A stretch of DNA of 64,000 nt from Aphanocapsa sp. GSE-SYN-MK-11-07L (GTDB taxonomy: Bacteria > Cyanobacteriota > Cyanobacteriia > Thermosynechococcales > Thermosynechococcaceae): contig JAHHGS010000076.1 of NCBI GenBank assembly GCA_019359715.1, forward strand, positions 1 through 64,000, in the 5' to 3' direction. Shown in pieces: positions 18,463 through 32,802 of the stretch. Position numbers and translations under genes: made by a program. Each line of letters opens with the position of its first letter. The stretch's first letter is position 1. The notes under the pieces were generated by a model. It did not search any database. It saw only the letters and a list, made by a program, of their open reading frames with translations, and was not told where the DNA came from.

Positions 18463-19029
18463 TCAAAGCCCTTCAATTGGGACGCCCAAGAAGCTGGCGA
18501 TCGCCGCCCCTTGATTTTCGAGTTCTGCCAGCGGCAGCGGTTGCCCCACTCGCGTCAGGGGAATATCGCCTCGTCCTTTAATTTTGAGATAAACCGCCCG
18601 CTTGGGGTTAAAGCCTTCTCGCAACACAATTCGGACGGATTGGACATCGGCGACTCGGCAAGAAATATCAATCCGGCGATTTTTGCCCGGAAAGCCCCAG
18701 CGAAACACCTTTACCATGCCCGCTTCTTTGTCGAACTCGTTAAAGCCTGCCCCCACATCCCAAGCAATCACCAGCCAAAGGTAGGTGGCCAACAGCAGCG
18801 CCGCCACGCCATAAAACCCGATCGCAATTCCCTGTGGAATAAACACGAGGCTTACTGAGTCGCCAAAGGGCAACAGGTTAGCGCCCAAATAGCTGGACAG
18901 TCCGGCCAGAAAAAAGCCAATTCCACCGATGGTCACGACGGTCGCCCACCAATAGTTGCTGAATCGGCGGGAGCCAATCACCTCATAGCGCAACACTGAC
19001 TTGCCTGTGGAAACAGATTGTGTGGCCAT
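18463..19029 (-). CDS. ycf4: Photosystem I assembly protein Ycf4
   Basis: This 188-residue thylakoid protein has two N-terminal transmembrane helices (residues ~27-48 and ~65-90) and a soluble domain with the family blocks GSRRFSNYWWATVV, FPGKNRRIDISC and DVQSVRIVLREGFNPKR. It acts as a scaffold for PSI assembly. The length is typical (about 185). Its upstream region runs into the IS110 element 180 bp away, so the promoter must lie within about 19030-19150. Confidence 0.96.
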   Translation of the reverse strand: MATQSVSTGKSVLRYEVIGSRRFSNYWWATVVTIGGIGFFLAGLSSYLGANLLPFGDSVSLVFIPQGIAIGFYGVAALLLATYLWLVIAWDVGAGFNEFDKEAGMVKVFRWGFPGKNRRIDISCRVADVQSVRIVLREGFNPKRAVYLKIKGRGDIPLTRVGQPLPLAELENQGAAIASFLGVPIEGL

Positions 19030-19210
19030 TTCTGCTAAAAAATTTAATCGTTATTCTTTAGAGTATAAGCCAGCCCGGTTTGGCTCAGCCGATCTTTAAA
19101 ATCGTCAAATTTGCTTGACTTTGCCCAGTTCTTAGTTAAATAGGTCAACTAATTCACTGTAGATGTTTTACCTTGACTGCGATGATTTTATCGCAGCGCA
19201 AAGCTAGGGT

Positions 19211-20431
19211 TTATTTCACCCCTGCCTCTACCAGTTCCCGAAACAGCGCTTTCACCGTCTTAGCGCAGAGTCTTGACCGCGCTAACTTAATGTTGGTTTT
19301 TGCACCTTTCAAATACTCAAAATACTCTTTCAGCGTCCCCTCTACCCTCACGCCGTCTATCTCCCAGCCCGTAGAGGGCAAATTCTTAGGGGTGGCTTGC
19401 TTTGTCTCTATTCGAGTAAAAACCCATTGCCAGAGCGCAGTTCTCACCTGACCTGAGCCAGCCAACCGCGATTGCTTCATCCCTGACTGTTTTTTACCTG
19501 ACCATTCACGGGTTGGACTGCAACCGAGCACCTTTAAGAACCGCCGTTCTGAAAGATGTTTATCCGTCTGCTTGTCAGGGTTCTTCTTACTGCGAGTTCT
19601 GACGACCATCGGTAGCCCATCCTCCCCTAAGAAGTTGCTCAAGGGATAAATGTGACTGAGCAAGATTGCCTCTAGCTTCTGCCCAAATCCAAACCGTGCA
19701 AACACCTTCCGGTAGGGCAAGAATCGAGCGTCTGAAAGCAGGTCTAGCATTTCCCGCGTTAGCTTCTCTTCATGGGGCCAGAGTTGAATTAACAGCGATG
19801 CCATTTCCCTTGTATAGTCAGTGATTCCTGAGCCAATTGTTTCGGCTGCCACCTTGTCATACAGAGCGCTCTTTCGCTCTCCGGCCAGCCAGCCCCAGAA
19901 GACGACCGCGTTTAGTCCTTTGCTTGCCAACTCTGGACACTGCCAAGCTAAATCCTGCCTGATTCGGTTCACTTGGGGGGACTGCATTCGGTTCAAGTGG
20001 TCTAACCGATGGCAGAGTTCCCGCAGCCGTTCCGCAATGGGGTCACGATTTCGCAAAAAGGCCCCAATTTGCCCTTCAAACTGTGCTCCATAGTAGGCCA
20101 GCGCTAGCGCATCCCCTTCATCGTCTTTATTCTCAGACAGGATGGTTTCACGGTAGCGTCTCACCTTGGAGTGAGACACCAGCAGCAGACGGATTCCCGC
20201 TTCTTTCAGCTTGTGACACCAAAATCGGCTGTAGTTGGTTCCGGTCGGTTCCAGAACGCAAGCATCCGGCTTCATTGCCAGCAGAGTTTTCAAGCCCTGC
20301 ACATCCGTCTTTAGCCGCGGAAAGTCGCTCTCAATATAAAGTTTTCCAGGTTCGGGTAAGGGCAATGCTGTATCAATTAAGCAGACAACAACATCAGCCT
20401 TAGAAACATCTAATCCAGCAATTAACGTCAT
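19211..20431 (-). CDS. IS110-family DEDD transposase
   Basis: This 406-residue recombinase starts LIAGLDVSKADVVVCLID, the RuvC-like first Asp of the DEDD domain. It continues with DACVLEPTGTNYSRFW (Glu) and the ETILSENKDDEGDALALA stretch (paired Asp). The C-terminal transposase_20-like part holds KVFARFGFGQKLEAIL and LKVLGCSP; the Ser nucleophile usual in this domain is probably around REWSGKKQSG. The length is a little above the common 330-400. The frame is intact, so it may be active. In characterised IS110 elements the protein works with a bridge RNA transcribed from the non-coding end. Confidence 0.92.
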   Translation of the reverse strand: MTLIAGLDVSKADVVVCLIDTALPLPEPGKLYIESDFPRLKTDVQGLKTLLAMKPDACVLEPTGTNYSRFWCHKLKEAGIRLLLVSHSKVRRYRETILSENKDDEGDALALAYYGAQFEGQIGAFLRNRDPIAERLRELCHRLDHLNRMQSPQVNRIRQDLAWQCPELASKGLNAVVFWGWLAGERKSALYDKVAAETIGSGITDYTREMASLLIQLWPHEEKLTREMLDLLSDARFLPYRKVFARFGFGQKLEAILLSHIYPLSNFLGEDGLPMVVRTRSKKNPDKQTDKHLSERRFLKVLGCSPTREWSGKKQSGMKQSRLAGSGQVRTALWQWVFTRIETKQATPKNLPSTGWEIDGVRVEGTLKEYFEYLKGAKTNIKLARSRLCAKTVKALFRELVEAGVK

Positions 20432-20437
20432 TTAATT

Positions 20438-20640
20438 TGAGTGGGTTGGTTTACGTCGCGACCGGGATATCAGCTTGCGAATCACCCATAAGGACTACTT
20501 ACTTCACTGTCAAAGCTGCCGGTAAAAGGGGTAAAATGCCTACGAATTAGTAAAGGCTCGCGCCAACTTCTTCTCCAAGGCACCCCTACGGATAGGTAGC
20601 GATCCTGTCCGCGAACCCATCAGTTTACTGGTGGGTTTTC
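20438..20640 (-). ncRNA. Candidate IS110 bridge-RNA region
   Basis: This is the non-coding stretch upstream of the transposase start. Read leftward, it opens with a 10-bp hairpin (20628-20637 with 20614-20623, TAAA loop, one wobble). A second imperfect stem with internal loop follows (the CGGACAGG/CCTATCCG region near 20588-20610), and more GC-rich arms continue to about 20540. IS110 members encode a structured bridge RNA in this position that pairs with target and donor DNA. No loop-target pairing could be established by eye, so this is inference from position and structure. Confidence 0.4.
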
Positions 20641-20650
20641 GCTTGCTGGA

Positions 20651-20899
20651 TCAGGCAAGCTCATCAGGCGGTAAAACACTATCCATCAGTTGCCAAAGGC
20701 TTTGTAAAAGCTCGACTTTCTCTTGTGATGAAGCAATGCTGGCAAACTCATTTGCCCTCCGCAACAATGAGGCTTGGACTTGAACTAACGGAACATCCAG
20801 TAAGCGCGCATTTTCTTTGCAGACTTGATTGAAGGCGATCGCCAACAAAATCACCGCATCCTTATGTTTGGCAGTTTCCGCTTGCGATGATCGGCTCAT
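20651..20899 (-). CDS. Small hypothetical protein, leftward operon gene 4
   Basis: This 82-residue protein is predicted mostly helical, with no signal peptide or membrane helix. It overlaps the preceding gene by 4 bp (ATGA), so it is translationally coupled. Not recognised. The stop is about 10 bp from the hairpin that begins the IS110 region, so the operon's terminator may have been displaced by the insertion. Confidence 0.6.
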   Translation of the reverse strand: MSRSSQAETAKHKDAVILLAIAFNQVCKENARLLDVPLVQVQASLLRRANEFASIASSQEKVELLQSLWQLMDSVLPPDELA

Positions 20900-21111
20900 G
20901 GTTCAGCGTCCTCCATCGCGGCCTGAATTTGCCCGATGATTTGCGCTAAAAAGCAGTGTGTCTGCTCTGGTGTAGCTAATTTCATCAGAGAATTGGCTTC
21001 ATCAATGCAAGCTTTCATCACCCCGGCGCTGGGTTGGTCGGTTTTTTCAGCCAGCCGCCCTAGAGCAACTCCCAACGTCACCAGCAGTAAGGCATCATTC
21101 CGGTTCATCAT
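20896..21111 (-). CDS. Small hypothetical protein, leftward operon gene 3
   Basis: This 71-residue helical protein starts MMNRNDALLLVTLGVALGRL. It overlaps both its neighbours by 4 bp. It resembles gene 4 in length and helical character (both have a short hydrophobic first helix and an acidic end), so the two might form a complex, but no family is recognised. Confidence 0.6.
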   Translation of the reverse strand: MMNRNDALLLVTLGVALGRLAEKTDQPSAGVMKACIDEANSLMKLATPEQTHCFLAQIIGQIQAAMEDAEP

Positions 21112-21476
21112 CCGTTTGCCCCCTGGTCTTGAGAAGTGCTTGAGCGGTATTCGCTCATGATGGCTAGCAGATGATGCAACGCCATATAAATCGGCAAGGG
21201 ACAGGTATGCTCTGCCCGAATCGCAATCACATAAGAGGAAATCTCGCCATCGCCATCGCTCATCAGAAAGTCTACTGTCATTGCGTAGTCTTCATCATCA
21301 CCACAGACCACATTGACGGCCTCAATCAGAGCATTGAAAATTTCAAGTTTGGTGACGACGGCATGATAGTCACCGTCACTTTCTCGGATAAATTTTGATT
21401 TTACAAACTGTTTGATCTCGGCCGTCAAATCAAGCGCCTGGGCCTGCTCTAGCTGATTCAGTTCATTTTCATTCAT
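21108..21476 (-). CDS. Hypothetical acidic protein, leftward operon gene 2
   Basis: This 122-residue protein is acidic in its middle (VCGDDEDYAMTVDFLMSDGDGE) and has a hydrophobic segment around CPLPIYMALHHLLAIM that is too short and polar to be clearly transmembrane. It overlaps genes 1 and 3 by 4 bp each. Not recognised. An acidic small protein in an early phage-like operon could be a DNA mimic or an anti-host factor, but nothing here proves it. Confidence 0.6.
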   Translation of the reverse strand: MNENELNQLEQAQALDLTAEIKQFVKSKFIRESDGDYHAVVTKLEIFNALIEAVNVVCGDDEDYAMTVDFLMSDGDGEISSYVIAIRAEHTCPLPIYMALHHLLAIMSEYRSSTSQDQGANG

Positions 21477-21715
21477 GCTGATTTCCTCTTAGTGTGTGAT
21501 TTACGAAAGCGATCGGCGCTGGGACAGATTGACCAGTGAGGCGACCCGTCAGAGTGAACGGGCATCCACCGATCGTTTTGAGTTTTGACCCAGAAGATCC
21601 AACTTCTGCAATCCTTGCATTGTGTTGGCTGAGTCCCTGATGGAATGCGATAGGAGGTCATAGGCGGCATGGGATAATGGGGGCAAATTAAAGAGCAGCT
21701 CTTTGGCGGGTACAC
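21473..21715 (-). CDS. Small zinc-ribbon-like protein, leftward operon gene 1
   Basis: This protein of up to 80 residues has a CxxC knuckle in QCKDCRSWIFWVKTQN and a second Cys after HWSICPSADRF, with an intervening His. Similar small Cys-rich proteins are common on cyanobacterial plasmids and phages. The start is uncertain: ATG at 21715 is the longest, and an ATG at 21670 would still include the whole motif. It is divergent from the repressor-like gene, with the operator cluster between them. Confidence 0.6.
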   Translation of the reverse strand: MYPPKSCSLICPHYPMPPMTSYRIPSGTQPTQCKDCRSWIFWVKTQNDRWMPVHSDGSPHWSICPSADRFRKSHTKRKSA

Positions 21716-21751
21716 CTAGCGGTGTGCCCGTCATTCGTATGCCTATCAAAC

Positions 21752-21778
21752 GTACAACAAATTGTACCTAAAGTACAA
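21752..21778. promoter_or_regulatory. Operator-like cluster of three GTACAA half-sites
   Basis: GTACAA at 21752-21757, its complement TTGTAC at 21762-21767 and GTACAA again at 21773-21778 form two overlapping inverted repeats. The second, ATTGTAC-N5-GTACAAT, has perfect 7-bp arms. The cluster lies in the 78-bp gap between the leftward operon and the rightward helix-turn-helix gene, where a phage-type repressor would bind. Confidence 0.55.
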
Positions 21779-21793
21779 TCAATTATACTTATA

Positions 21794-22048
21794 ATGGTCA
21801 GAAAGACTCAATCACCCCTAGTTCCCCTTATGGCAGTTCGAGGAATTACACAACAGCAAATCGCTGATCACTTAGGCGTTCATGTTCAAACCGTCAAAAA
21901 TTGGATGACTGGTAGAACACAATGTAGGCTGACGCTTGATGAATGGGAATCCTTAGCCCAACTGATGGGCACAAAAGTAGAGCATTTACCCCGCAGTTTT
22001 GCACCACAACCCATCCACGACACCAGCCCTAACCATGAATCAAACTGA
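21794..22048 (+). CDS. XRE-type helix-turn-helix repressor-like protein
   Basis: This 84-residue protein has a clear lambda-repressor-like domain: MAVRGITQQQIADHLGVHV (helices 1-2) then QTVKNWMTGRTQC (recognition helix) and LDEWESLAQLMG. I start it at ATG 21794; the longer frame from 21722 would run through the operator cluster. It is likely the master switch of the element, repressing its own and the divergent promoter. There is no peptidase domain, so induction would not be by RecA-type self-cleavage. Confidence 0.8.
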   Translation: MVRKTQSPLVPLMAVRGITQQQIADHLGVHVQTVKNWMTGRTQCRLTLDEWESLAQLMGTKVEHLPRSFAPQPIHDTSPNHESN

Positions 22049-22295
22049 CATTCAGTTAGGCGACGCGGTAGAGGTGAGATGGCGCGATAGTGAACCGATT
22101 CAAGGCATTGTTGAATGGGTTGGCGGTGCTACTCTCCAAATAGCTGGCCGCTACTACAGCATCCATGACTGTGAGTTGGTGGGCAACCCCTTAAATTTGC
22201 CCACCAACTGCATCCATGATCGCCCCTTTGATCCGGCGATCGCCCTTCTGTGCCCCCTGGTCTTCAACACCCCTGAAACCCTTACCGAGTCATGA
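22035..22295 (+). CDS. Small SH3-like barrel protein, copy 1
   Basis: This 86-residue protein overlaps the repressor gene by 14 bp. The pattern GDAVEVRWRDSEPIQGIVEWVGGATLQIAGRYYSI is a short beta-rich unit; ELVGNPLNLPTN follows. The next gene repeats this whole unit, so the two are a duplication. The unit could be a nucleic-acid-binding barrel, but no family is recognised. Confidence 0.6.
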   Translation: MNQTDIQLGDAVEVRWRDSEPIQGIVEWVGGATLQIAGRYYSIHDCELVGNPLNLPTNCIHDRPFDPAIALLCPLVFNTPETLTES

Positions 22296-22705
22296 TTGGC
22301 AAATGCAACATTGAAGAGGGGGATTGGGTCGAGTTTGACATCGTTCCTGGCAAACCCTATCGGGGCATTGTCACTCAGATCGGCATTGACATGCTGCAAA
22401 TCGATAGCAAGTATTGGATCAAGAGTGGCTTGATGTTGGTGGGCAAACAATTGAGTTTGCCCACCAACTCTCATCCCGATCGCAGCGCCCAGGGGGACAA
22501 GAAAAAATCCCTACCCGCAGGCATACCCGGCGATGCATGGCTTGAACACAAGAAAGTCAACGGTCAAGTTTATCTGCAATACCGCTGGCGTGACCCAGAG
22601 ACGGGTAAAAAGCGATCGCGCTACCTGGGCCGGGCAGATGGCTCAGGTTTAGGAGCAGCCCGCAGCTGCGGCAGCTCACCAGCCAAACCCTCAAAACCTG
22701 GCTGA
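22292..22705 (+). CDS. Small SH3-like barrel protein, copy 2, with C-terminal DUF6788-like tail
   Basis: This 137-residue protein overlaps copy 1 by 4 bp. Residues ~7-60 repeat the barrel unit (GDWVEFDIVPGKPYRGIVTQIG, abbreviated, then LMLVGKQLSLPTN). The remainder, AWLEHKKVNGQVYLQYRW then DPETGKKRSRYLGRA, resembles a short basic motif common on cyanobacterial mobile elements. It ends 10 bp from the recombinase stop, with the two genes converging. Confidence 0.6.
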   Translation: MIGKCNIEEGDWVEFDIVPGKPYRGIVTQIGIDMLQIDSKYWIKSGLMLVGKQLSLPTNSHPDRSAQGDKKKSLPAGIPGDAWLEHKKVNGQVYLQYRWRDPETGKKRSRYLGRADGSGLGAARSCGSSPAKPSKPG

Positions 22706-22715
22706 AACCGGAGGG

Positions 22716-23288
22716 CTACAGAGTATTTACAGCAGCGAGTACCTGCTTATCTGTCACTTCAATGTATTCATCTAGGGATGAGCGATCGCGATGGCCGCTA
22801 ATTTTTTGCAGCACCCATGGGCTGATCGCGTTGTTGGCCAGCCGGGTTAAAAACGTCCGTCTAAAGCTATGAGTGGTAAACCCGCGCTTATCCAGCCCTG
22901 CCCTAACTAATGTGCTACGTAGATTGCTATCAATCGTCCGATGGTCTAGGCAATCCATTGCATCTCGGCCCGGAAACAGATAGCCAGCCACCGGTGGCGA
23001 GTAGGCCTTTAATGCCCGGGCCAAGCTGGGATGGATCGGGACTTGTCGATCGTCAATCTGCCCCTTGCGGGTTTCCTTAGCGTAAAAGATATACTCATGG
23101 GGGATTCTGGCGATTGGATCGCGGTAAACAGACTCAACCCGCAGCTGCCGGATTGCCCCCATCCGTTCACCTGTCCAGTAGGCAATTTCCCAGATCAGCC
23201 GTTGCGACTCTGAGCGAGTCGCCTTCAGTAACCGCTGCCACTCGCTATCAGTAAAAATGCTGGCCTTGCCGCGTCGATTTAACTTCAC
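22716..23288 (-). CDS. Minimal tyrosine recombinase (catalytic domain only)
   Basis: This 190-residue integrase shows all catalytic residues: Arg in TGERMGAIRQLRVE, Lys around YAKETRKGQ, HSFRRTF (H-x-x-R), ISGHRDRSS (second His) and Tyr in DEYIEVTD. The N-terminal core-binding domain of normal phage integrases (about 100-150 residues) is absent, and the ORF begins directly with the catalytic domain (ASIFTDSEWQRLL). Such short integrases occur in cyanobacterial elements. It presumably moves or resolves this element. The palindrome at 23392-23421 lies 100 bp upstream of its start. Confidence 0.85.
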   Translation of the reverse strand: MKLNRRGKASIFTDSEWQRLLKATRSESQRLIWEIAYWTGERMGAIRQLRVESVYRDPIARIPHEYIFYAKETRKGQIDDRQVPIHPSLARALKAYSPPVAGYLFPGRDAMDCLDHRTIDSNLRSTLVRAGLDKRGFTTHSFRRTFLTRLANNAISPWVLQKISGHRDRSSLDEYIEVTDKQVLAAVNTL

Positions 23289-23360
23289 ATCTTTTTCCTA
23301 ACTGACAGGATTAATTACTCATATCCAGCCATAAAATTCAGATTGAATCGTTTGGAATGC

Positions 23361-23421
23361 TTGACAGTCTTATCTTACGCCAATTTTAACTAATGGGATA
23401 TTTTCCGCAAAATATCCCATT
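23361..23421 (+). promoter_or_regulatory. Candidate late promoter with a 13-bp palindromic operator
   Basis: TTGACA at 23361-23366 has a weak -10 (TTTTAA) 17 bp later. It is followed immediately by a perfect 13-bp inverted repeat (23392-23404 with 23409-23421, loop CCGC, core ATGGGATATTTT). The location is right for a promoter of the rightward operon starting at 23486, with an operator over the transcription start. The dyad could instead be a recombination site for the adjacent integrase. Confidence 0.45.
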
Positions 23422-23485
23422 GTCAAAGCTCAGAAAACGTAGGTTAATGAACTTAATTCAGTTCTAAAACCATCCTTTTCTATCC

Positions 23486-24547
23486 ATGCCTTGGGAACTG
23501 TTGAGCGAAAAATTATTGGTGAATGATGTCTGGACAATTAGCGACAGTCCGATCGACACCGAATATTTAAAGCTTGAGTTTGAAGACCCAGACCAAACCG
23601 AGCGAGTCGGTGTGGCCGCCTTTAGTCTGAACGGTGAGCGGGCCTTAACTCAGATTGTCAGAGCCAGCCTTGAGCCGCAAGTGCTGGAATTTAAGCGATT
23701 CGGTATCCTGACTCAGCAAAAAATTGGCTTTCGGCCCTGGAACCCAAGCGCTCAATCCCTCCGAATCAAGGTCTATTGGTGGAACTCGCTTAACGCTGCA
23801 ACCTCTGCCTTATTTGCCCGGTTTACGGGCACGTATTTAGCTGCCCGCAACCTGGCGATTAATCAGCTCATTGAAACCCTAACAACTAAACTGATCTGGC
23901 AAAAATTTGATTGCTTTTACGTTTTTGCCGCTCCCAATGCTGCCGATAGCCTGCTCAACTGGAAAGCTAATTCCTTTAACTGCACCCCGGTCAATAATCC
24001 TACCTTTGCGATTGATCGAGGCTACACCGGCAATACCACCACGTCTTATCTCAATACCAACTTTATCCCGACCGCAGGCACTAATAATTTCACCCGGTTC
24101 AACGCTGGCTTTGGGATTTATTCCCGCACCAATAACGCCTCTGGCACTTGGGCAGATATCGGCAATAGTGGCACGAATATTAGTGAAATTCGTGCGCGCC
24201 GCGTCACTGGAATATCCTATGGCGTCAATAGTAACAATCGCCCAGAAGCAGCCACGGCAATCCCAGACTCTCTAGGGCTGATTTCTGTGTCTCGTTTAAC
24301 CGAAGGCTCTATCTCAGCCTATCGAAATGGCGTTTTAAATGACACGCAAACCTCGAATAATGCCCTAGCTTTGGAACCCAATAGCTTTTTAATTGGGGCC
24401 ACCCGGAATACTACCGTAGCGCCTCAATGGTTTTCGGGTAGACAAATTGCGATGGCGTTTATTGGGGCTGGACTGAGCGCCCAAGAACACAGCGACCTCT
24501 ACGCGGCTGTCCAACTGTACTTGTCCACAATCGGAGCAAGTGTTTAA
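23486..24547 (+). CDS. Virion-surface-like protein with C-terminal lectin/LamG-like region
   Basis: This 353-residue protein has no signal peptide. Residues 1-100 are beta-rich (MPWELLSEKLLVNDVWTI; RVGVAAFSLNGERAL). The second half is Asn/Thr-rich with the concanavalin-like pattern GFGIYSRTN, SVSRLTEGSISAYRNGVL, FLIGATRN, ending MAFIGAGLSAQEHSDLYAAV. That ending is familiar from phage tail and receptor-binding proteins. I infer a host-recognition spike or fibre. It is the first gene of the late-like operon. Confidence 0.65.
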   Translation: MPWELLSEKLLVNDVWTISDSPIDTEYLKLEFEDPDQTERVGVAAFSLNGERALTQIVRASLEPQVLEFKRFGILTQQKIGFRPWNPSAQSLRIKVYWWNSLNAATSALFARFTGTYLAARNLAINQLIETLTTKLIWQKFDCFYVFAAPNAADSLLNWKANSFNCTPVNNPTFAIDRGYTGNTTTSYLNTNFIPTAGTNNFTRFNAGFGIYSRTNNASGTWADIGNSGTNISEIRARRVTGISYGVNSNNRPEAATAIPDSLGLISVSRLTEGSISAYRNGVLNDTQTSNNALALEPNSFLIGATRNTTVAPQWFSGRQIAMAFIGAGLSAQEHSDLYAAVQLYLSTIGASV

Positions 24548-24564
24548 CCTCTAGGAGACTCGTT

Positions 24565-24873
24565 ATGACTGCATTTGTGAAGTCACAATTACCCGATGCG
24601 ATTAACACCGTTGAAGAGTTACTGGTCTGGGCATCCTCAATCCTGGCCGAGCTTAACGCAGGCACTAAAGTCCAAGTTGACCGCTCCAATGTCTTGCGGG
24701 CTGTAGATGCCCGGCCCGCCCTACTCGAAAACGAACCCGTCGATCCTGAGCGGTTTGGGATTGCTGCCTACATCCCCCTAGAACCAACTTGGCGCGGCAG
24801 AAAACCCTGGTTTAACGGAGTGAAAGAACTCTCTACAGATGCGATTCCGAGTGCCTATACCAGTAACTCTTAA
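24565..24873 (+). CDS. Small hypothetical structural-module protein
   Basis: This 102-residue protein starts MTAFVKSQLPDAINTVEELL, 17 bp after the previous gene, with AGGAG upstream. It is soluble, with one helix followed by Pro/Trp-rich sequence (LEPTWRGRKPWFNGVKEL). No family recognised. Its place between the fibre-like gene and the 892-residue gene suggests a virion accessory or chaperone. Confidence 0.65.
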   Translation: MTAFVKSQLPDAINTVEELLVWASSILAELNAGTKVQVDRSNVLRAVDARPALLENEPVDPERFGIAAYIPLEPTWRGRKPWFNGVKELSTDAIPSAYTSNS

Positions 24874-24955
24874 GGCATTACCGCCTCAATTCTGAATCAC
24901 CTCAGACCAGGGATTGATCTCTGTCATCTCTTGTCTCTTCCCTCGCTAATTTGCA

Positions 24956-27634
24956 ATGTCTCTGCCTTGGATGAAGCCACCGCCGGGTTACACCAGTAAC
25001 CCGTTTACCGGGCCACGGGCCACGGTCAAAGCACCGATCGCAGATAATGCCCCGAAGCCGTTCGCTGAACCAACAACGAATGCGCCCAAACCCGCCCCCA
25101 ATCTCCAACCCCCCAAACCCGCCCCGGCCCCGGCCGCTCCGCCGACAGTTCCCTATAATAGTGCGCCTGGTTATACCTCGCCAACACCTCCGAATGGGGT
25201 GCCTACCAGTACCGGAGGGACACCTTTACAGCCTAATCCCCAGTGGACGCACCCCGGCAATCAACCCGCTAAACCCCCTGGCGTGGTTTCTCAGCCACCC
25301 AAAACACCCAGTATCCCAACTCAGCCCGTTACCACCCCCCAAACCCCTAGCGTTCCTGGGATTCCTGCATCTGCTCCAGCCGTTGCCCCGTTGATTAACC
25401 CGCTGTGGGTGATTCCGGCGATCATCATTCCTGCTGTTGTTTTAACCCCCAACGGTAAGCTTTCCGATGGAACGGCCTTGCCGGGTTCACCCGTTAATAC
25501 CCCTCCCAAACCGCAGGGATTTAAGTTTGACCCCGTGCGGCCCGGTACGACTGGCAAGGTTGAAATCAGGATCGTCCAAAAGGGCAACTATACCGTTGGC
25601 AATCCAGATAACCCAGAGTCCCCAATCAAAAAAGACTTTTCCTATCGGCTCACCGTCTGGGCTGATGCGGCGGTTGATTCAGTCACTCTCAACCCTGAAT
25701 CAAATTTTTTGGTGCATAGCTACGCGATGTTTGGGGTTCAGATTCGGAATGGCAATAACCAAGTCGGTTGGACACTGAAAGACGTTAGGGTTTCTCCCAG
25801 CCCCGATCCGTTTCGGTATTCCACCAATCGCAAAATAACCAGCGTTTCGGTTACCCCGCTCAACAGTCCAGATCTCACCCCGTTTCCGACCACCGATCCA
25901 GATCCAGACGATCAGCCAGGGATTGCCCCGTTTGCCGGGCCACAGCCAACCCCCATTCCCCCCCCTGGCACGGCTGCCCCAACGCCCCAGCCGGATAATC
26001 CCCCTGGCACAACGCCGACCGGATCGCCTGTAAAAACGCCTACCCCTGGTGAAACCCCGACGCCTGAGAGTCCAAATATCCCTTCTACTCCAGACACAGG
26101 CTCAGGATCAGGATCAGGCACAGGCGCAACCAATACGCCCAGTACCACTCCCCCAACTCAAGAGGAGTTAGAGACACCCAGCACAGAGAGTACGTCGATA
26201 ACTGACCTCACGACTAAGGTCACGGAACTGACCAACCGAGTCGATCAACTCGACAAAAAACAAAATACGGTTTGCAAATTCCAAACCACCGATCTTGCTG
26301 CTGTCAATGCCAAGCTAGACGAAATTTTAGAGATTCTCAAACAGAAAGAAGACACAGACAACGAAGATCCGAATCTTTATGACTCGATTGAGTTGCCGCT
26401 AGCCGTTAAAACGGGCGATCGGCAGGGCGAAATTCAAACCAGAAACCTGCTAGTCAAGAAAGGGCAAGGCGGTATTGCCTCCCAATTTGCCACCAGCGCC
26501 GGTTGGGCAGTGCTCGGTTTTCAAGCCCCCCTCCTCACAACGATCGCCAAAATTCTCAACTGGCAGTCAGTTTTTGACGATGAGGGCCGGGCAGCCGTGA
26601 ATCCCAAGCAGGTCGTAGAAGAAGCTGGTCAAGCCCAAACCCAAGATGATGGGGCCACCTTTAACGCCGTGCCTGTTGTTGGGGCGATGGGTCTACTCGC
26701 TGCCTTTGGCGGTGCCGCCTGGATTCGGCAAGGGTTGCACACCCTGCCTAGACAGGTAACGCAATCGACCCTAGACCCGGTTAGAAATGTGGTTGAGACA
26801 ACCACAGGCACGGCCACGAATGCCGTGGATGTGACCATGACCTCGACCAGCCAGGGCAACGCCATCATGACGGGTTTAAGGGGTGTTAATCGGTTTCTGA
26901 AACGGGCCAATGAGCAGCTTAAGCTAGACCGAATCCTCAACATCCTCACCCTGATCACAACGATTCACAATGCCGCCATGCTTAGCAACTCGATTAAGGA
27001 CACCCTGGTCAGTGCTGTAGACAATGCGATCGCTACACTCGGCTGGCTGCCCAAGGATGAAGAAGGGCGCGAGATCGCCCTCTCGGAGATGGTCAACGAC
27101 ACGATCGAGAACACGATCATCTCGATCATTGGCAGAGACAATTACCAGGGCATCACGACAACCTGGAAAAAGGCCAACCGGATTTATCAAGCGGCGGCTA
27201 ACATCCTCTACTCGCTGCAAAGCATGATGAGCAGCGTCATTAATGCCCTGGAAGTTGGGTTTGGCTGGGTGGCCTGGATCGGTAACGCTTTGAAAAAATG
27301 GGGAGTCGTGACCGAGAAGGCCTATGCCTGGATGAACCCGTCGCCTAACTTCCAGAACAAGTTTTTTACCGCTTTAAACAAGGGGGAGGAAATCGCCAGC
27401 AACCTAGAGGAAGTCACCTCAGAGGTCAGAGAGACAGGCGAAACCTTTAACAACCTGGATGAGTTGAAGAAAGAGCTAGACAAATCGCTTGAAGAAGGTC
27501 TGGCTCAACCCCAGATCTCTAACACTGAACAAATCGACATTGCAGAGCTTGCTTCAACCGCTAGCGCAGCGCCCCCGATCGCCCCGACTGACTTAGATAA
27601 ACCGGAAGCAGGCCCAGAGCAAGGAGGTTCCTAA
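24956..27634 (+). CDS. Large Pro-rich, coiled-coil and multi-helix membrane-active protein, function unknown
   Basis: This 892-residue protein has distinct parts. Residues 1-150 are Pro/Ala/Thr-rich low complexity. One hydrophobic stretch (~148-165, PLWVIPAIIIPAVVL) precedes a beta domain (~180-300). A second Pro/Thr/Gly-rich linker (~305-415) follows, then a short coiled coil (~420-470, LTTKVTELTNRVDQLDKK). The C-terminal half has hydrophobic or amphipathic helices (PVVGAMGLLAAFGGAAW; RILNILTLITTIHNAAML) and ends in an acidic coil. Its architecture suits a trans-envelope spike or injection protein. No ATPase or protease motif is seen. The next gene begins directly after the stop. Confidence 0.7.
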   Translation: MSLPWMKPPPGYTSNPFTGPRATVKAPIADNAPKPFAEPTTNAPKPAPNLQPPKPAPAPAAPPTVPYNSAPGYTSPTPPNGVPTSTGGTPLQPNPQWTHPGNQPAKPPGVVSQPPKTPSIPTQPVTTPQTPSVPGIPASAPAVAPLINPLWVIPAIIIPAVVLTPNGKLSDGTALPGSPVNTPPKPQGFKFDPVRPGTTGKVEIRIVQKGNYTVGNPDNPESPIKKDFSYRLTVWADAAVDSVTLNPESNFLVHSYAMFGVQIRNGNNQVGWTLKDVRVSPSPDPFRYSTNRKITSVSVTPLNSPDLTPFPTTDPDPDDQPGIAPFAGPQPTPIPPPGTAAPTPQPDNPPGTTPTGSPVKTPTPGETPTPESPNIPSTPDTGSGSGSGTGATNTPSTTPPTQEELETPSTESTSITDLTTKVTELTNRVDQLDKKQNTVCKFQTTDLAAVNAKLDEILEILKQKEDTDNEDPNLYDSIELPLAVKTGDRQGEIQTRNLLVKKGQGGIASQFATSAGWAVLGFQAPLLTTIAKILNWQSVFDDEGRAAVNPKQVVEEAGQAQTQDDGATFNAVPVVGAMGLLAAFGGAAWIRQGLHTLPRQVTQSTLDPVRNVVETTTGTATNAVDVTMTSTSQGNAIMTGLRGVNRFLKRANEQLKLDRILNILTLITTIHNAAMLSNSIKDTLVSAVDNAIATLGWLPKDEEGREIALSEMVNDTIENTIISIIGRDNYQGITTTWKKANRIYQAAANILYSLQSMMSSVINALEVGFGWVAWIGNALKKWGVVTEKAYAWMNPSPNFQNKFFTALNKGEEIASNLEEVTSEVRETGETFNNLDELKKELDKSLEEGLAQPQISNTEQIDIAELASTASAAPPIAPTDLDKPEAGPEQGGS

Positions 27635-28453
27635 ATGCCATTACCAGAAGGGTTTAGCGAATGGGAGCATTTACAAAGCACTGTGTTACGGATTCACAAT
27701 CGCTTTGTCAGAGATGAATTTTCAGACATTGGAGCTGATGATGAAATCGCTGGGGCCCGTGGCTCATTGCGCCATGCCAGCCTGATCAAGGATGACGATT
27801 CCGCGATCATGGTCATGAACCGAATGCTGTTGTTTTATGTCTTGTGTCGGAAAGCCAGCGACTTGCAGGCCCCCCTCTATGGCACTCCTATATCTGACTT
27901 TGATGAGCGAGTGATCTATCGCCCCCAAGTTCATCTCTATTTTCGCCAAGATGCTGATTCTGTGCCTGCCAATAAGCAGCCGGTACGCGCTCAGATTAGC
28001 TTTCGGCTCAACGAGTCTCCCCAGACGATCACCGAGGCAGACTTGCGGCAAATTGGCACTCGCATCCGGTCTGAATTTGGCACGAGTGGGCGCTATCGCT
28101 GGAGTCGGGGCAAAATTCTCGTCACCTATAAAGATCCTCCAAACGGGCTGAACTTCCAAATTTACGCCCTGAATGAGGCAGAGGGCCGCCAAGTGATCCA
28201 AAAGTCGCTGGATGTGGCCAACCGCACCTATGACCCTGATTTATTGGTTGTGCATACCCCGGCTAGCGGTGCCTATCCTACTAGCCCAGGCAATCAGACA
28301 ATCTTGGGCAAGTCCCGGTCTAAACCCGTGCGACGGTCTAGAGCCTACGTTAGATTCAGCCATGCGACGGCTCACATTTGGGGTTTGCAATTGCCGATTA
28401 TTCTTTGCGGTTCCCCCTATCGTTATCCCAATGTCTTGGTGCCCTTAGATTAA
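27635..28453 (+). CDS. Hypothetical late-operon protein
   Basis: This 272-residue soluble protein starts at the base after the 892-residue gene's stop, with GGAGG 8 bp upstream. It has an alpha-rich first third (ALRHASL-type helix, MVMNRMLLFYVLCRK), a charged middle with YRPQVHLYFRQDAD and RAQISFRLNESPQTIT, and a basic stretch KSRSKPVRRSRAYVRF. No family recognised. Tight coupling suggests a partner of the 892-residue protein. Confidence 0.65.
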   Translation: MPLPEGFSEWEHLQSTVLRIHNRFVRDEFSDIGADDEIAGARGSLRHASLIKDDDSAIMVMNRMLLFYVLCRKASDLQAPLYGTPISDFDERVIYRPQVHLYFRQDADSVPANKQPVRAQISFRLNESPQTITEADLRQIGTRIRSEFGTSGRYRWSRGKILVTYKDPPNGLNFQIYALNEAEGRQVIQKSLDVANRTYDPDLLVVHTPASGAYPTSPGNQTILGKSRSKPVRRSRAYVRFSHATAHIWGLQLPIILCGSPYRYPNVLVPLD

Positions 28454-28548
28454 ATTCGCTCTCCTCTAACCCTCTAAGCGTTGAAGCTTTTCGATCAGGC
28501 TGAAATCCTTTTACAGTAGGGATTAACACTAGTTTAGAGAGAAAAATT

Positions 28549-29088
28549 ATGGCACGCAGAGGATCGCGGTATTTGGGAATTTTGCGGGGCACCGATAATG
28601 AGGCGGCCACCAAAACAATCGCCTATTTACGGGGGACTCGCAAAGTCACCTATGAAGGCCGCCGGGGCAACCGGCCCGCCCTGCGCCGGGTAAAAGTGCG
28701 TCTGTTTGACATGCCGATCGCTGATACCAAGTTTCTCTTAGAAAATGTCAATCAAAGCAGATGGGCGACGGTGAAACCGTTTGTGAATACGTTTACGTTT
28801 GAGGTTGAGTCAGGAGACAGCCCCGATGATCTGCTAGACATTCCCCTCTTAAACGCGCCCAGAGCCTTAATCGTGCTCGATCGTTCAGACATTGGCACTC
28901 GCAAAGTTTCTGAAATCAGTGGACTTGAGTATAAGTCTTACGGCGGAACCAGCGTTTCTGTCCCCTTTGGCAAAAGTACCGCTTCTGGCAGCAACGTCAA
29001 TACTGCTTTTTCGGCGATTCGGACGGCGGTCAAAAATGCCGATGTCAGAAATATGTGTTCTTTAGTGCCAGGCACCTATGTTGGTTGA
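28549..29088 (+). CDS. Basic small protein with its own leader; coat-protein candidate
   Basis: This 179-residue protein is preceded by a 95-bp gap, the largest in the operon, with a TTTACA-like box and a purine-rich AGAGAGAAAAA ribosome site, so it may be expressed separately and strongly. Its N-terminus is Arg-rich (MARRGSRYLGILRG; RRGNRPALRRVKVRLF); the rest is predicted beta-rich. An Arg-rich arm followed by a beta domain is seen in several small viral coat proteins, but there is no detectable family match, so this is a hypothesis only. Confidence 0.6.
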   Translation: MARRGSRYLGILRGTDNEAATKTIAYLRGTRKVTYEGRRGNRPALRRVKVRLFDMPIADTKFLLENVNQSRWATVKPFVNTFTFEVESGDSPDDLLDIPLLNAPRALIVLDRSDIGTRKVSEISGLEYKSYGGTSVSVPFGKSTASGSNVNTAFSAIRTAVKNADVRNMCSLVPGTYVG

Positions 29089-29323
29089 GGAACGGATTTG
29101 GCTAGCGCTGTCCACCCCGCAGGATCAAGCGGCCCTGCGGGGTGAACGGGACTGGACACCAGAGCAGGAATGGAAGCGCTACGTTCAGCGCCAAACCCTC
29201 TTGCAGCAGGTGATATTCGGCAATATGCACCCAGATGATTTGCTCGATTGCCTGCTTGACCATGACCTCAGCCCCGATGATTATCTTGACCAGGTAGATG
29301 ATGGTTTACGCCCACTATGCTAG
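29078..29323 (+). CDS. Small hypothetical protein
   Basis: This 81-residue protein overlaps the preceding gene by 11 bp and the next by 7 bp. It is acidic, with DWTPEQEWKRYVQRQTLLQ and a C-terminal DDLLDCLLDHDLSPDDYLD. The pattern recalls small DUF-type proteins with short acidic repeats, but none is recognised. Confidence 0.55.
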   Translation: MLVEERIWLALSTPQDQAALRGERDWTPEQEWKRYVQRQTLLQQVIFGNMHPDDLLDCLLDHDLSPDDYLDQVDDGLRPLC

Positions 29324-29793
29324 ACGGCTCAGTCAAACTAGTTGGCCCGTTGTCTATACCGGGGGAATGGACGCGGGAACTACAGGTCAGTGCTGACCTG
29401 GTGGCTGTCCAGATTGGCAATGGCCGCTATGTTCCGATTCCCCCGCTGGTCAAACTCACCCCGCATCGGGTGCTGATGATTGGTTGCCGTAACCCATTAG
29501 CCAAACCGAGTTGGTTCTTAGGGTGCTGGCTGAGTGTTGAGTTACTTTGCTCCCCCAGCAGCACATCCCAACTGGCTGGCTTAGCTGAACTGCAACATCA
29601 CGCCATCCCCTTGCAGCGTTACAAGCTGATTGTGATCCCTGAGATTGAGACTGAATCACCCTATCGACTCAGGTTCAGGATTCCCTACTGGCATCAAGAA
29701 ATCAGGATTGAAGCGTTCTACCTTGATAACACATTGACGACGGATATACAGGCTTCCCTGGAACGGCTTGAAGCTGCTGTTAACACCTTGTAG
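29317..29793 (+). CDS. Hypothetical protein of the late operon
   Basis: This 158-residue protein starts MLDGSVKLVGPLSIPG. It is beta-rich (VAVQIGNGRYVPIPPLVKL; YRLRFRIPYWHQEIRIEAFYL) and ends in a helix. No signal peptide and no recognised family. It is coupled to its neighbours by overlap upstream and a 2-bp gap downstream. Confidence 0.6.
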   Translation: MLDGSVKLVGPLSIPGEWTRELQVSADLVAVQIGNGRYVPIPPLVKLTPHRVLMIGCRNPLAKPSWFLGCWLSVELLCSPSSTSQLAGLAELQHHAIPLQRYKLIVIPEIETESPYRLRFRIPYWHQEIRIEAFYLDNTLTTDIQASLERLEAAVNTL

Positions 29794-29795
29794 CC

Positions 29796-30065
29796 ATGAC
29801 TCAACCGCCCGATCGCTCAAAAATTACCCTGACCCCAAACAAAGAGCGGATCTCGCTCAGTTATGCCTCCCTTGCCCTGCTGGGGACAATGACTGCTGCT
29901 TTGGGAGGAGCATTTATGCATTTCTACAGCCAGGTTTGCACCCCCCAGGTTTTGACGGCCCAGTCTGAGAAAAAAGAGCTGTTAACGGTACTGAATCAGC
30001 TTAGCCTGCAAATCCAAACCAACACCAAAGCGATTGAAGACCTGCACGATCGCCAGCCAAAATAA
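29796..30065 (+). CDS. Holin-like single-helix membrane protein
   Basis: This 89-residue protein has a polar N-terminus (MTQPPDRSKITLTPNKERI), one hydrophobic helix (residues ~26-48, SYASLALLGTMTAALGGAFM), then a coiled, charged C-terminus (LLTVLNQLSLQIQTNTKAI). It resembles small phage holin or spanin-type proteins in size and topology. It directly precedes the YkuD-like gene by 29 bp, as holins precede endolysins. Assignment is by context. Confidence 0.55.
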   Translation: MTQPPDRSKITLTPNKERISLSYASLALLGTMTAALGGAFMHFYSQVCTPQVLTAQSEKKELLTVLNQLSLQIQTNTKAIEDLHDRQPK

Positions 30066-30094
30066 GCAACTCATCACCCCACACTCTGGAGGAA

Positions 30095-30616
30095 ATGATC
30101 ATGTGCGCCCTCTATGGCCCCAAGCGCCGCCCCCAAGAATTTGGCTTTGGCCCCCCCGATACGCACCTGGTCGCTAACGATGCCACCGAGACAATTAAGG
30201 GCTATGCCTTTGGCGGTCAACTGCTGTTTGAGATTCCCGCCCTCTGTAAGGGCACCGGCGGCGATGACTGGCGCTTCAACAGCGCTGACACGCCCCCCGG
30301 CTTATACAAGCTGGGCGCAATTTACAACGACATCGTTAAGGTGGGCATGAACCCAGAGTTCGATCGCACCCTGAGAAGCTTTGGCTGGATTAGCTACGAC
30401 ATGATCGAGTTAGAAAGCCAGGAAATTAAGCATGGTCGGGCTGGGATTATGCTGCATGGCGGCGGCTCAGGGTGTGGTTGGCCCGGCGCTTGGCAACCCC
30501 GTCAGCGGCTTTACGCGACCTTTGGCTGTGTTCGCTGCCACAACATTGATTTAAGAGACAAAATTTTACCCCGCTACAAGCAGGGCACGGTTTACTTATC
30601 GGTCTACCAAGATTGA
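30095..30616 (+). CDS. YkuD-type L,D-transpeptidase/endolysin candidate
   Basis: This 173-residue protein has the YkuD catalytic pattern: His in IMLHGGGSGCGWPG, then about 21 residues later the Cys motif ATFGCVRCHNIDL. YkuD enzymes act on L,D bonds of peptidoglycan stem peptides. No signal peptide is present, so export would need the adjacent holin-like protein, as for phage endolysins. It starts MIMC at ATG 30095, with GGAGG upstream. Next to ndhF but unrelated to it; it closes the element. Confidence 0.7.
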   Translation: MIMCALYGPKRRPQEFGFGPPDTHLVANDATETIKGYAFGGQLLFEIPALCKGTGGDDWRFNSADTPPGLYKLGAIYNDIVKVGMNPEFDRTLRSFGWISYDMIELESQEIKHGRAGIMLHGGGSGCGWPGAWQPRQRLYATFGCVRCHNIDLRDKILPRYKQGTVYLSVYQD

Positions 30617-30756
30617 AGTGGTAGAGCGATCGCAAATTATCCGCTGGGGATTCTTCTCAGACCTGTGGCACAATGTTAGCGGTCAAAGCCGATGGCCGCA
30701 TTGTCCTTATGGACAACTCGACGGAGACTATCGCACACTCAATGGATGCTCAAATC

Positions 30757-32802
30757 ATGGAACCGCTTTATCAATATGCCTGGCTGATTCCGGTTTTACC
30801 ATTGGCCACAGCGATGGTGATTGGGTTAGGTCTGATTTCTTTTAACCAAGTTACGAATCAATTGCGACGGGCAAACGCGATTTTTGTGATTGCTGGCTTG
30901 GCAGCCGCGATGGCTTACTCCCTGGCAATCCTGTGGAGCCAGTATCATGGGCATGCTCCTTACCTGCAAACCTTTGAGTGGGCCTCGGCGGGGACATTTC
31001 ACTTGACGATGGGGTTCACGATTGACCACCTGTCAGCCTTGATGCTGACGATCGTGACCACGGTAGCGCTGCTGGTAATGATCTACACCGATGGCTACAT
31101 GGCCCATGATCCTGGCTATGTCCGGTTTTATGCCTATTTGAGCCTGTTCAGCTCCTCCATGCTGGGGCTGGTGGTCAGCATCAACCTAGTGCAGATTTAT
31201 GTGTTTTGGGAACTGGTCGGGATGTGCTCCTACCTGCTGGTTGGGTTTTGGTTCGACCGCAAATCAGCCGCTGATGCTGCCCAAAAAGCGTTTGTTACTA
31301 ACCGGGTCGGTGACTTTGGTTTACTTCTAGGAATTTTGGGCTTGTTTTGGGCCACGGGCAGCTTTGACTTTCAAACGATTGGCGATCGGCTCCAGCAGTT
31401 GGTCAGTTCTGGGGCCTTGAGCAGCGGCGTGGCGATTCTGCTGGCCATTTTGGTCTTTTTGGGCCCCGTCGCCAAGTCGGCCCAGTTTCCGCTCCATGTT
31501 TGGCTACCGGACGCGATGGAAGGCCCGACCCCCATCTCGGCTCTGATTCATGCCGCCACGATGGTGGCAGCCGGAGTATTCCTAATTGCCCGCATGTTCC
31601 CGGTCTTTTCGGGCATGCCAGAGGTGATGAATGTGATTGCTTGGACAGGCGCATTTACGGCTTTTTTGGGCGCTTCGATCGCGATTACTCAAAACGACAT
31701 CAAAAAAGGCTTGGCCTATTCCACCATTTCTCAGTTGGGCTACATGGTGATGGCAATGGGCGTAGGTGCCTATTCCGCTGGCTTATTTCACCTGATGACC
31801 CACGCTTATTTCAAAGCGATGTTGTTCTTGGGTTCAGGCTCCGTCATTCACGGCATGGAAGGAGTAGTCGGACACGATCCGGTGCTGGCCCAAGACATGC
31901 GCTTGATGGGCGGCTTGCGGAAGTATATGCCGCTGACTTCCCTCACTTTTTTGGTTGGCTGCTTGGCGATTTCGGGGATTCCGCCCTTTGCTGGCTTCTG
32001 GTCGAAGGATGAAATTTTAGGCTCTGTCTTTGCCAGCAATCCGGCCATGTGGATGGTGGGTTGGCTAACGGCGGGGATTACTGCTTTCTACATGTTTCGG
32101 ATGTATTTTTCCACCTTTGAAGGCAGCTTTCGGGGCCACCAAACGGATGTCCGCCAGCAGCTAAAAGCCGCCGCTGGTGAGCCAGAACTGGCCATGGCCT
32201 TTGGCCCCGGTGCGATGGATCCAAAAGAGCTAGACCAGGATCATCACCACAGCGACTCGCCCCACGAGTCGCCGCTGACGATGACCTTACCGCTACTGAT
32301 CTTGGCGGTGCCCTCACTGCTGATTGGCCTGGTTGGTACGCCCTTTAATAATTACTTTGAAGCGTTTATTCATCCCGCAGGCGACGCGATCGCTGAAGTA
32401 GCTGAGGTTGCCCACGAGTTCGACTGGACAGAGTTCCTAGTCATGGGCGGTAGCTCAATCGGGATTGCCCTAATTGGCATCACCCTGGCTTCGCTAATGT
32501 ACCTCCAACGCAAGCTTGATCCAGGCGCGATCGCGGCTAAAATCAAGCCGCTCTATGAGTTTTCGCTGCACAAGTGGTACATTGACGACCTCTACAACAC
32601 GGTTTTCGTCCAAGGCTGTCGCCGCTTGGCTCGCCAAGTTCTAGAGGTAGACTACAACGTCGTCGATGGCGTCGTCAACCTGACTGGCTTCGTGACGATG
32701 ATCAGCGGTGAAGGGCTGAAATACTTTGAGAGTGGACGAGTCCAGTTCTACGCTCTAATTGTCTTTCTCGCCGTTCTCGGCTTTGTGATCATTTCGGCGT
32801 AG
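30757..32802 (+). CDS. ndhF: NAD(P)H-quinone oxidoreductase subunit 5 (NdhF)
   Basis: This 681-residue antiporter-like subunit of the thylakoid NDH-1 complex pumps protons during cyclic/respiratory electron flow. It has fourteen or more hydrophobic helices and conserved blocks VGMCSYLLVGFWFDR, HVWLPDAMEGPTPISALIHAATMV (abbreviated) and AFTAFLGASIAITQNDIKK with the key Lys. I start it at ATG 30757 (MEPLYQYAWLIPVLPL), the conserved NdhF beginning; ATGs at 30709 and 30742 are also in frame. No ndhD follows, so the usual ndhF-ndhD pairing is broken here. Confidence 0.95.
   Translation: MEPLYQYAWLIPVLPLATAMVIGLGLISFNQVTNQLRRANAIFVIAGLAAAMAYSLAILWSQYHGHAPYLQTFEWASAGTFHLTMGFTIDHLSALMLTIVTTVALLVMIYTDGYMAHDPGYVRFYAYLSLFSSSMLGLVVSINLVQIYVFWELVGMCSYLLVGFWFDRKSAADAAQKAFVTNRVGDFGLLLGILGLFWATGSFDFQTIGDRLQQLVSSGALSSGVAILLAILVFLGPVAKSAQFPLHVWLPDAMEGPTPISALIHAATMVAAGVFLIARMFPVFSGMPEVMNVIAWTGAFTAFLGASIAITQNDIKKGLAYSTISQLGYMVMAMGVGAYSAGLFHLMTHAYFKAMLFLGSGSVIHGMEGVVGHDPVLAQDMRLMGGLRKYMPLTSLTFLVGCLAISGIPPFAGFWSKDEILGSVFASNPAMWMVGWLTAGITAFYMFRMYFSTFEGSFRGHQTDVRQQLKAAAGEPELAMAFGPGAMDPKELDQDHHHSDSPHESPLTMTLPLLILAVPSLLIGLVGTPFNNYFEAFIHPAGDAIAEVAEVAHEFDWTEFLVMGGSSIGIALIGITLASLMYLQRKLDPGAIAAKIKPLYEFSLHKWYIDDLYNTVFVQGCRRLARQVLEVDYNVVDGVVNLTGFVTMISGEGLKYFESGRVQFYALIVFLAVLGFVIISA

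Follow-up and report, generated by a model that had tools for sequence, protein, structure and literature searches.

What kind of element combines, within about 10 kb, a repressor, operator-like sites, a minimal integrase and a long late-type operon in which no packaging gene can be read? The question is raised by a locus in the 64,000-nucleotide stretch analysed here (positions 1–64,000 of contig JAHHGS010000076.1 of Aphanocapsa sp. GSE-SYN-MK-11-07L, assembly GCA_019359715.1; hereafter the window), which an initial annotation had read as a compact prophage-like element (20641–30660) with unknown virion or particle proteins. In the current work, we describe this locus as an integrated element of approximately 11.4 kb, extending from about 19,200 to 30,640. 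It is somewhat bigger than the span first proposed, since a flanking IS110 gene (19211–20431) that had been missed is counted into the left end. The element is conserved and mobile and has no recognised counterpart in the phage collections searched, and we lean, at slightly better than even confidence, towards regarding it as an integrated copy of a cyanobacterial family of small temperate virus-like elements.

A conserved module in 42 loci

The late operon contains a module, G10 to G15, encoded on the forward strand. Its best-conserved product is G12 (272 residues; 27635–28453), for which relatives occur in 56 of 390 cyanobacterial genomes of the class, spread over 31 of 160 genera, and, by profile search, in 27 of 386 genomes of a phylum sample; a single-sequence query over genome contigs returned one relative. 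G12 is single-copy in the window's own genome and absent from the listed 2.1–2.8 Mb genomes of the host's family. It is accompanied by G10 (102 residues; 24565–24873), G11 (892 residues; 24956–27634), G13 (179 residues; 28549–29088; 37 relatives aligned), the small acidic G14 (81 residues; 29078–29323) and G15 (158 residues; 29317–29793). The same gene order, which the initial annotation had proposed seeking in cyanobacterial genomes, was examined in 42 loci—that is, the window and the surroundings of 41 relatives, with 920 called genes clustered. One shared order emerged, accompanied by differing integrase types: G12 is present in all 42 loci, G11 in 41, G14 in 30, G13 in 28, G10 in 24 and G15 in 23, with a related cluster (c11) standing for G13 in 10 further loci and cluster c7 holding the G10 position in 11 further loci. 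G11 and G12 adjoin in 41 of the 42, and the remaining module genes keep their order, which is beyond chance. Thus, by shared order and recurrence, the module is a unit, and the ratios of nonsynonymous to synonymous substitution rates (dN/dS, 0.00–0.35 in close pairs) place G12 to G15 under purifying selection. The initial annotation had named beforehand, as grounds for abandoning its idea, genes scattered over the chromosome or membership of a known phage family that has standard capsid genes; synteny was found instead, and no standard capsid genes.

G11 has a hypervariable N-terminal region, collagen-like and Pro-rich in its parts, and a conserved C-terminal domain (residues ~600–884). In pairs of near-identical elements, its identity rises from about 20% in the N-terminal blocks to 80–100% in the C-terminal blocks, a step from about 20% to about 98%, and G10 diverges together with the N-terminal part; in the distant pair L040/L065 the contrast is reversed. 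G11 may therefore be pictured as a conserved base that carries an exchangeable specificity part. Its earlier description as an envelope-type protein was not upheld, the only matches being Pfam NPV_P10 (E 0.018) and Pro-rich, low-complexity entries in the PDB; a PDB match to P14 (6ncl) was rejected, as it spans the Pro-rich part only.

The module occurs in both plasmid and chromosomal form. In Nostocales cyanobacterium HT-58-2 it is found on two complete plasmids, pHT582-1 (37 kb) and pHT582-2 (15.6 kb), the latter also encoding ParA, ParB and an integrase. Genome G494 has it twice, at 1.06 and 6.17 Mb; the copies are 98.0% identical over 12.5 kb and have different neighbours on the right, and their near-identity shows recent movement. 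Relatives carry various integrases (c8 and c51; some full-length), repressors and AAA_25 helicases, one with a Toprim-like part. Because further genes occur in relatives, namely for helicases, full-length integrases, modular fibres and, once, a GH19 endolysin, we read the locus as a temperate virus-like element rather than as scattered genes. To this extent the initial annotation stands (a mobile virus-like element with unknown structural proteins), while its three options of a satellite, a new virus family or a domesticated particle are not separable by sequence.

Some relatives have further genes of interest. Besides the module, plasmid pHT582-2 itself encodes a protein of 1664 residues in which Pfam recognises a perforin-like MACPF domain (L072:9827-14821; E 2.1e-6). 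A separate leftward operon in three loci (L046:3899-5362, L050:3116-4561 and L060:12373-13728) encodes a c64 protein that seems to contain a membrane segment and has a GSREGKS motif resembling Walker A; unmatched in Pfam and NCBIfam, it may be an ATPase for assembly or packaging in a sub-branch. In L065, a near-complete integrase lies at one end (265-1122) and its C-terminal 100 residues are duplicated at the other (14106-14432), which suggests that an attachment site lies within the integrase gene. The alternative of an SSV-like split integrase was rejected here, since the two pieces overlap in their C-terminal part and thus represent a duplicated fragment, not a clean split.

The terminal IS110 recombinase

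The left terminal gene of the element (19211–20431, reverse strand, outward) encodes an IS110-family DEDD recombinase of 406 residues, with matches to PF01548 (E 3.5e-13) and PF02371 and with the DEDD residues plus catalytic Ser. Its catalytic residues are intact, D8, E61, D104, D107 and S311 being invariant in 8 relatives, and the gene is single-copy in its genome. The element has a second recombinase, INT (22716–23288, reverse strand), which corresponds to the minimal integrase of the initial annotation: a Xer-like tyrosine recombinase of 190 residues that comprises the catalytic part only (PF00589, E 3.8e-20). An NCBIfam XerA-like match (E 6.3e-15) is below the cut-off, and INT is a possible resolvase, invertase or integrase.

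Within 20-kb intervals, IS110 co-occurs with INT (7/10 versus 2/31; Fisher p 1.6e-4), and wider flanks revealed IS110 just beyond two intervals earlier scored negative. For loci G494c and G598b, we forecast that it would lie past their ends; it did so in both, as the sole copy in each genome. In all 21 elements of the subgroup examined (the window, G340, G191, two in G197, G050, G019, G069, G293, G196, G336, G024, G576, G494c, G598b, two in G523, two in G205, G574 and G334), IS110 is the outermost gene and is transcribed outwards. The genomes surveyed were those chosen for carrying the module, and the survey set aside INT homologues on other, probably plasmid, contigs; in 5 of the 21, G12 was not found in the stretch seen and c7/G10-type or G11-type genes are present, and both G205 stretches are cut at contig or stretch ends. 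Between the two G197 copies, homology stops at the IS110 stop codon. Elements of types A and B differ by inversion of the INT-late block relative to the IS110-early block, so that the IS110 end is constant and INT moves. Locus L069 has INT without IS110 and carries a full-length integrase instead; its genome contains no IS110 homologue. Given the position in 21/21 elements, the constant IS110 end and the substitute integrase of L069, IS110 is probably the integrase of this subgroup, in which INT may act as a resolvase or invertase. A non-coding region of approximately 220–600 bp precedes each IS110 gene; in the window it spans 219 nucleotides (20432–20650, reverse strand) and is a candidate bridge-RNA region.

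Regulatory, late and flanking genes of the window copy

A divergent early-like operon (20651–21715) and a rightward operon of nine genes (23486–30616) had been proposed, and all of their frames are open as placed. On the reverse strand, the former comprises g01 (82 residues; 20651–20899), g02 (71 residues; 20896–21111), g03 (122 residues; 21108–21476) and g04 (80 residues; 21473–21715). No family was assigned to g01 or g03, and no significant one to g04; g02 has a weak relative beside an IS110 gene in L132 (phmmer E 0.024). The repressor was recovered as g05 (21794–22048, forward strand, ATG at 21794), a Cro/C1-type helix-turn-helix protein (Pfam HTH_31, E 1.5e-7) with relatives in L035, L043, L055 and other loci. 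The operator cluster likewise took shape as two near-palindromes (21752–21790) directly upstream of this gene, at 21752–21767 (GTACAACAAATTGTAC) and 21771–21790. The forward-strand paralogues g06 (21999–22295) and g07 (22292–22705) cluster together (c46), and g07 has a same-place relative in G069 (phmmer E 2.7e-7); copies of a palindrome, GTTGGTGGGCAA...TTGCCCACCAAC, lie within their coding frames at 22170–22208 and 22435–22473.

The rightward operon begins with g09 (23486–24547, forward strand), the fibre-like protein, which matches PHROG_18498 (E 1.9e-21; function of this PHROG unassigned) and which we tentatively describe as an anchor domain plus an adhesin region. It weakly resembles (E 0.058) a domain found both in c6 proteins, which stand alone, and at the N terminus of c14 proteins (E 1.8e-7 to 1.1e-3). 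At the other end of the operon, g16 (29796–30065, forward strand) encodes a hydrophobic segment and a coiled coil; the holin-like call holds for its holin/spanin-like position, which g16-like genes also occupy in relatives, but the family match is weak (Rz-like spanin, PHROG_214, E 0.044). The YkuD-like (L,D-transpeptidase) candidate g17 (30095–30616, forward strand) has a lysis-type position, an H...GCVR motif at residues 121 and 144 and a counterpart at the same place in L035 that scores as YkuD (E 4.3e-4), but its own PF03734 score (E 0.016) is below the Pfam cut-off. The late genes of L045 include a GH19 endolysin (E 3.2e-11; PHROG endolysin, E 1.1e-56), and the remaining late genes differ between relatives (laminin-G-like in L043, Gly-rich in L048).

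The left flank is occupied by what we take to be a ycf4-like gene (18463–19029) and the right flank, from about 30.7 kb, by an ndhF1-like gene. The approximate right end (30617–30640) lies ahead of the ndhF1 promoter region; it was placed left of 30667–30682 because the CACAATGTTA-type motif there, conserved in relatives, belongs to the conserved ndhF1 upstream region. An empty site was sought through ycf4–ndhF1 adjacency, but the two genes do not adjoin in the relatives checked and therefore offer no clean one. PADLOC returned no defence systems. A sub-threshold Rfam match to SgrS inside ndhF1 (31702–31792, reverse strand; 22 bits against a cut-off of 37) is taken as chance.

Weighing the nature of a possible particle

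That no terminase, portal, capsid, tape measure or Walker-A protein can be read was reported initially and holds: Pfam, PHROGs and NCBIfam scans of the window proteins gave no match to the corresponding families, no Walker-A protein was seen in the window element, and the same databases revealed no Zot family in it. Among the frames, inspected by eye, no candidate stands out for a short coat protein with a signal peptide and one membrane segment. Structure prediction, also suggested at the outset, yielded confident models for G12 (predicted local distance difference test, pLDDT, 90.5) and G13 (pLDDT 88.7; predicted template modelling score, pTM, 0.75). Neither found a PDB match at E 0.001 and therefore neither is recognisable as an HK97 or jelly-roll protein; a jelly-roll major capsid protein, as in Varidnaviria-type viruses and microviruses, was thus not matched by these two, the module proteins searched as models for it. 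Two Foldseek matches of G12 were too weak to use, namely viral protein A0A510E869 (E 8e-4, prob 1.00, TM only 0.36) and a protein of Gordonia phage GMA6 (prob 0.57), whose likely gene (324 residues) is one of the unnamed genes that separate the terminase and capsid genes. A literature search limited to open-licence papers found no description of the family.

We nevertheless favour a virus-type particle, because the G11 contrast, the shared c6/c14 domain, the late-gene variation and the endolysin match the build of phage adhesion and release modules. In the mechanism that we propose, the repressor would hold the element silent; upon release, the element would circularise, with the IS110-type terminal recombinase most likely integrating and excising it at the chromosome (in the subgroup) and the small Xer-like recombinase probably resolving multimers or inverting a segment. 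The late operon would then give rise to a particle or adsorption apparatus, possibly autonomously, in which G12 and G13 would be the conserved structural proteins and the long G11 would combine its conserved base with its exchangeable part; fibre proteins would be attached via the shared anchor domain, and lysis-type genes would serve release.

Several results weigh against this proposal. Capsid, portal, terminase and packaging ATPase are all unrecognised. Searches by tblastn with two G12 proteins and one G11 against 50,697 phage records gave nothing, or E 0.3 only. Three pattern scans of 2.9 million IMG/VR contigs returned no credible relative, a weak negative given the short peptide patterns; sub-alignments were used there, the full 40-row G12 alignment being too diverse for a collection scan. 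The window copy has no attachment-site (att) direct repeats >12 bp and no replication gene, and its own lysis assignments are weak. A consistent IS110 position is no proof of an integrating role, and for a bridge RNA at 20432–20650 the fold z-score is only -1.09, with no Rfam match.

Some of these negatives would suit a phage satellite that encodes adsorption, fibre and lysis functions itself and relies on an infecting helper phage for the capsid in which it is packaged, a reading that we consider unlikely. It would account for the size (10–16 kb), the AAA_25/Toprim helicase-primase type genes of relatives and the missing packaging and capsid genes, and satellite phage-plasmids of <16 kb with prim-pol and ParB have been described from cryoconite (PMC4490671). 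Terminase_6N, the sole terminase family surveyed, is present in just 3 of 16 element-bearing genomes, which speaks against dependence on a constant resident helper, such as a tailed prophage, and still allows an infecting one; moreover, the shared module looks structural, and no capsid-remodelling or packaging-redirection gene was recognised. One of the three is the genome that contains the window, whose single weak match, on another contig (G000:C107:11675-12355), is possibly a tailed-phage relic or helper. Plasmid forms with ParA/ParB, the collagen-like, Pro-rich N-terminal parts of G11 and the failure to find a free virus would instead fit an integrative element or plasmid whose late module serves the host or builds a contact structure (adhesion, surface fibre or secretion). 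The repressor and operators, the relative's endolysin, fibre modularity and module exchange are phage-like, however, and no secretion or conjugation ATPase occurs in the window copy, so we hold this to be quite improbable. A decayed tailed prophage that has lost its head and packaging genes is scarcely credible: the gene order resembles a tail-to-lysis region, but dozens of genomes share this compact set, kept under purifying selection, and the phage records searched gave no credible relative.

Compatible with other readings is the idea that the IS110 gene is an independent insertion sequence favouring the element's end. IS110 elements target specific sites, and the non-coding region ahead of each gene would suit such an origin, but it appears rather unlikely given the identical position and direction in all 21 subgroup elements examined and the correct forecasts in G494 and G598. 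The IS110 genes are also mostly single-copy and 28–62% identical to each other, and no homologue occurs in G097, G018 or G025, genomes whose elements have other integrases.

Among known systems, phage satellites (P4, PICI, PICMI) and tycheposons are small integrative elements with a repressor and an integrase and without a terminase; unlike these, the present family has module genes without PHROG relatives. Pleolipoviruses and fuselloviruses have small circular genomes, integrated or plasmid-like, with no recognised packaging terminase; they infect archaea, no sequence relation to them was found, and lysis-type genes are present here. Tailed-phage (Caudoviricetes) membership fails on all hallmarks tested, and Inoviridae membership fails on the assembly ATPase. 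In some inoviruses, an IS110-family transposase lies in the small provirus, terminally in Neisseria Nf and Thermus phiOH16/Zuza, and the gene is also found in the Acinetobacter filamentous phage Af1; it is thought to be the integrase (PMC11437467, PMC11209303, PMC4471427). The terminal IS110 gene is thus known from filamentous phages, so this part of the element would work like a known system, but no Zot/pI ATPase or inoviral coat protein was found, fibre and lysis-type genes are present, and the structural proteins are unrelated by the searches made. The satellite phage-plasmids of group G8 (<16 kb and, in some members, with an integrase and primase-type replication and partition genes) are described as lacking structural genes, which would set them apart from the cyanobacterial family with its conserved structural-type module (Bellas et al., 2015; PMC4490671).

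It is conceivable, at somewhat less than even confidence, that these elements represent an unrecognised group of cyanobacterial viruses with virion folds absent from solved structures, integrated and plasmid forms, and a subgroup with terminal IS110 (possibly RNA-guided) integration. If particles are made, a virus group present in approximately one in seven sampled cyanobacterial genomes has escaped notice, since viruses are detected by hallmark genes that are already known. Possible new virion folds can be approached directly through the confident models of G12 and G13. With the terminal IS110 gene, nature offers a way to test whether recombinases known chiefly from work on simple insertion sequences also bring about the integration of an 11-kb lysogenic element.

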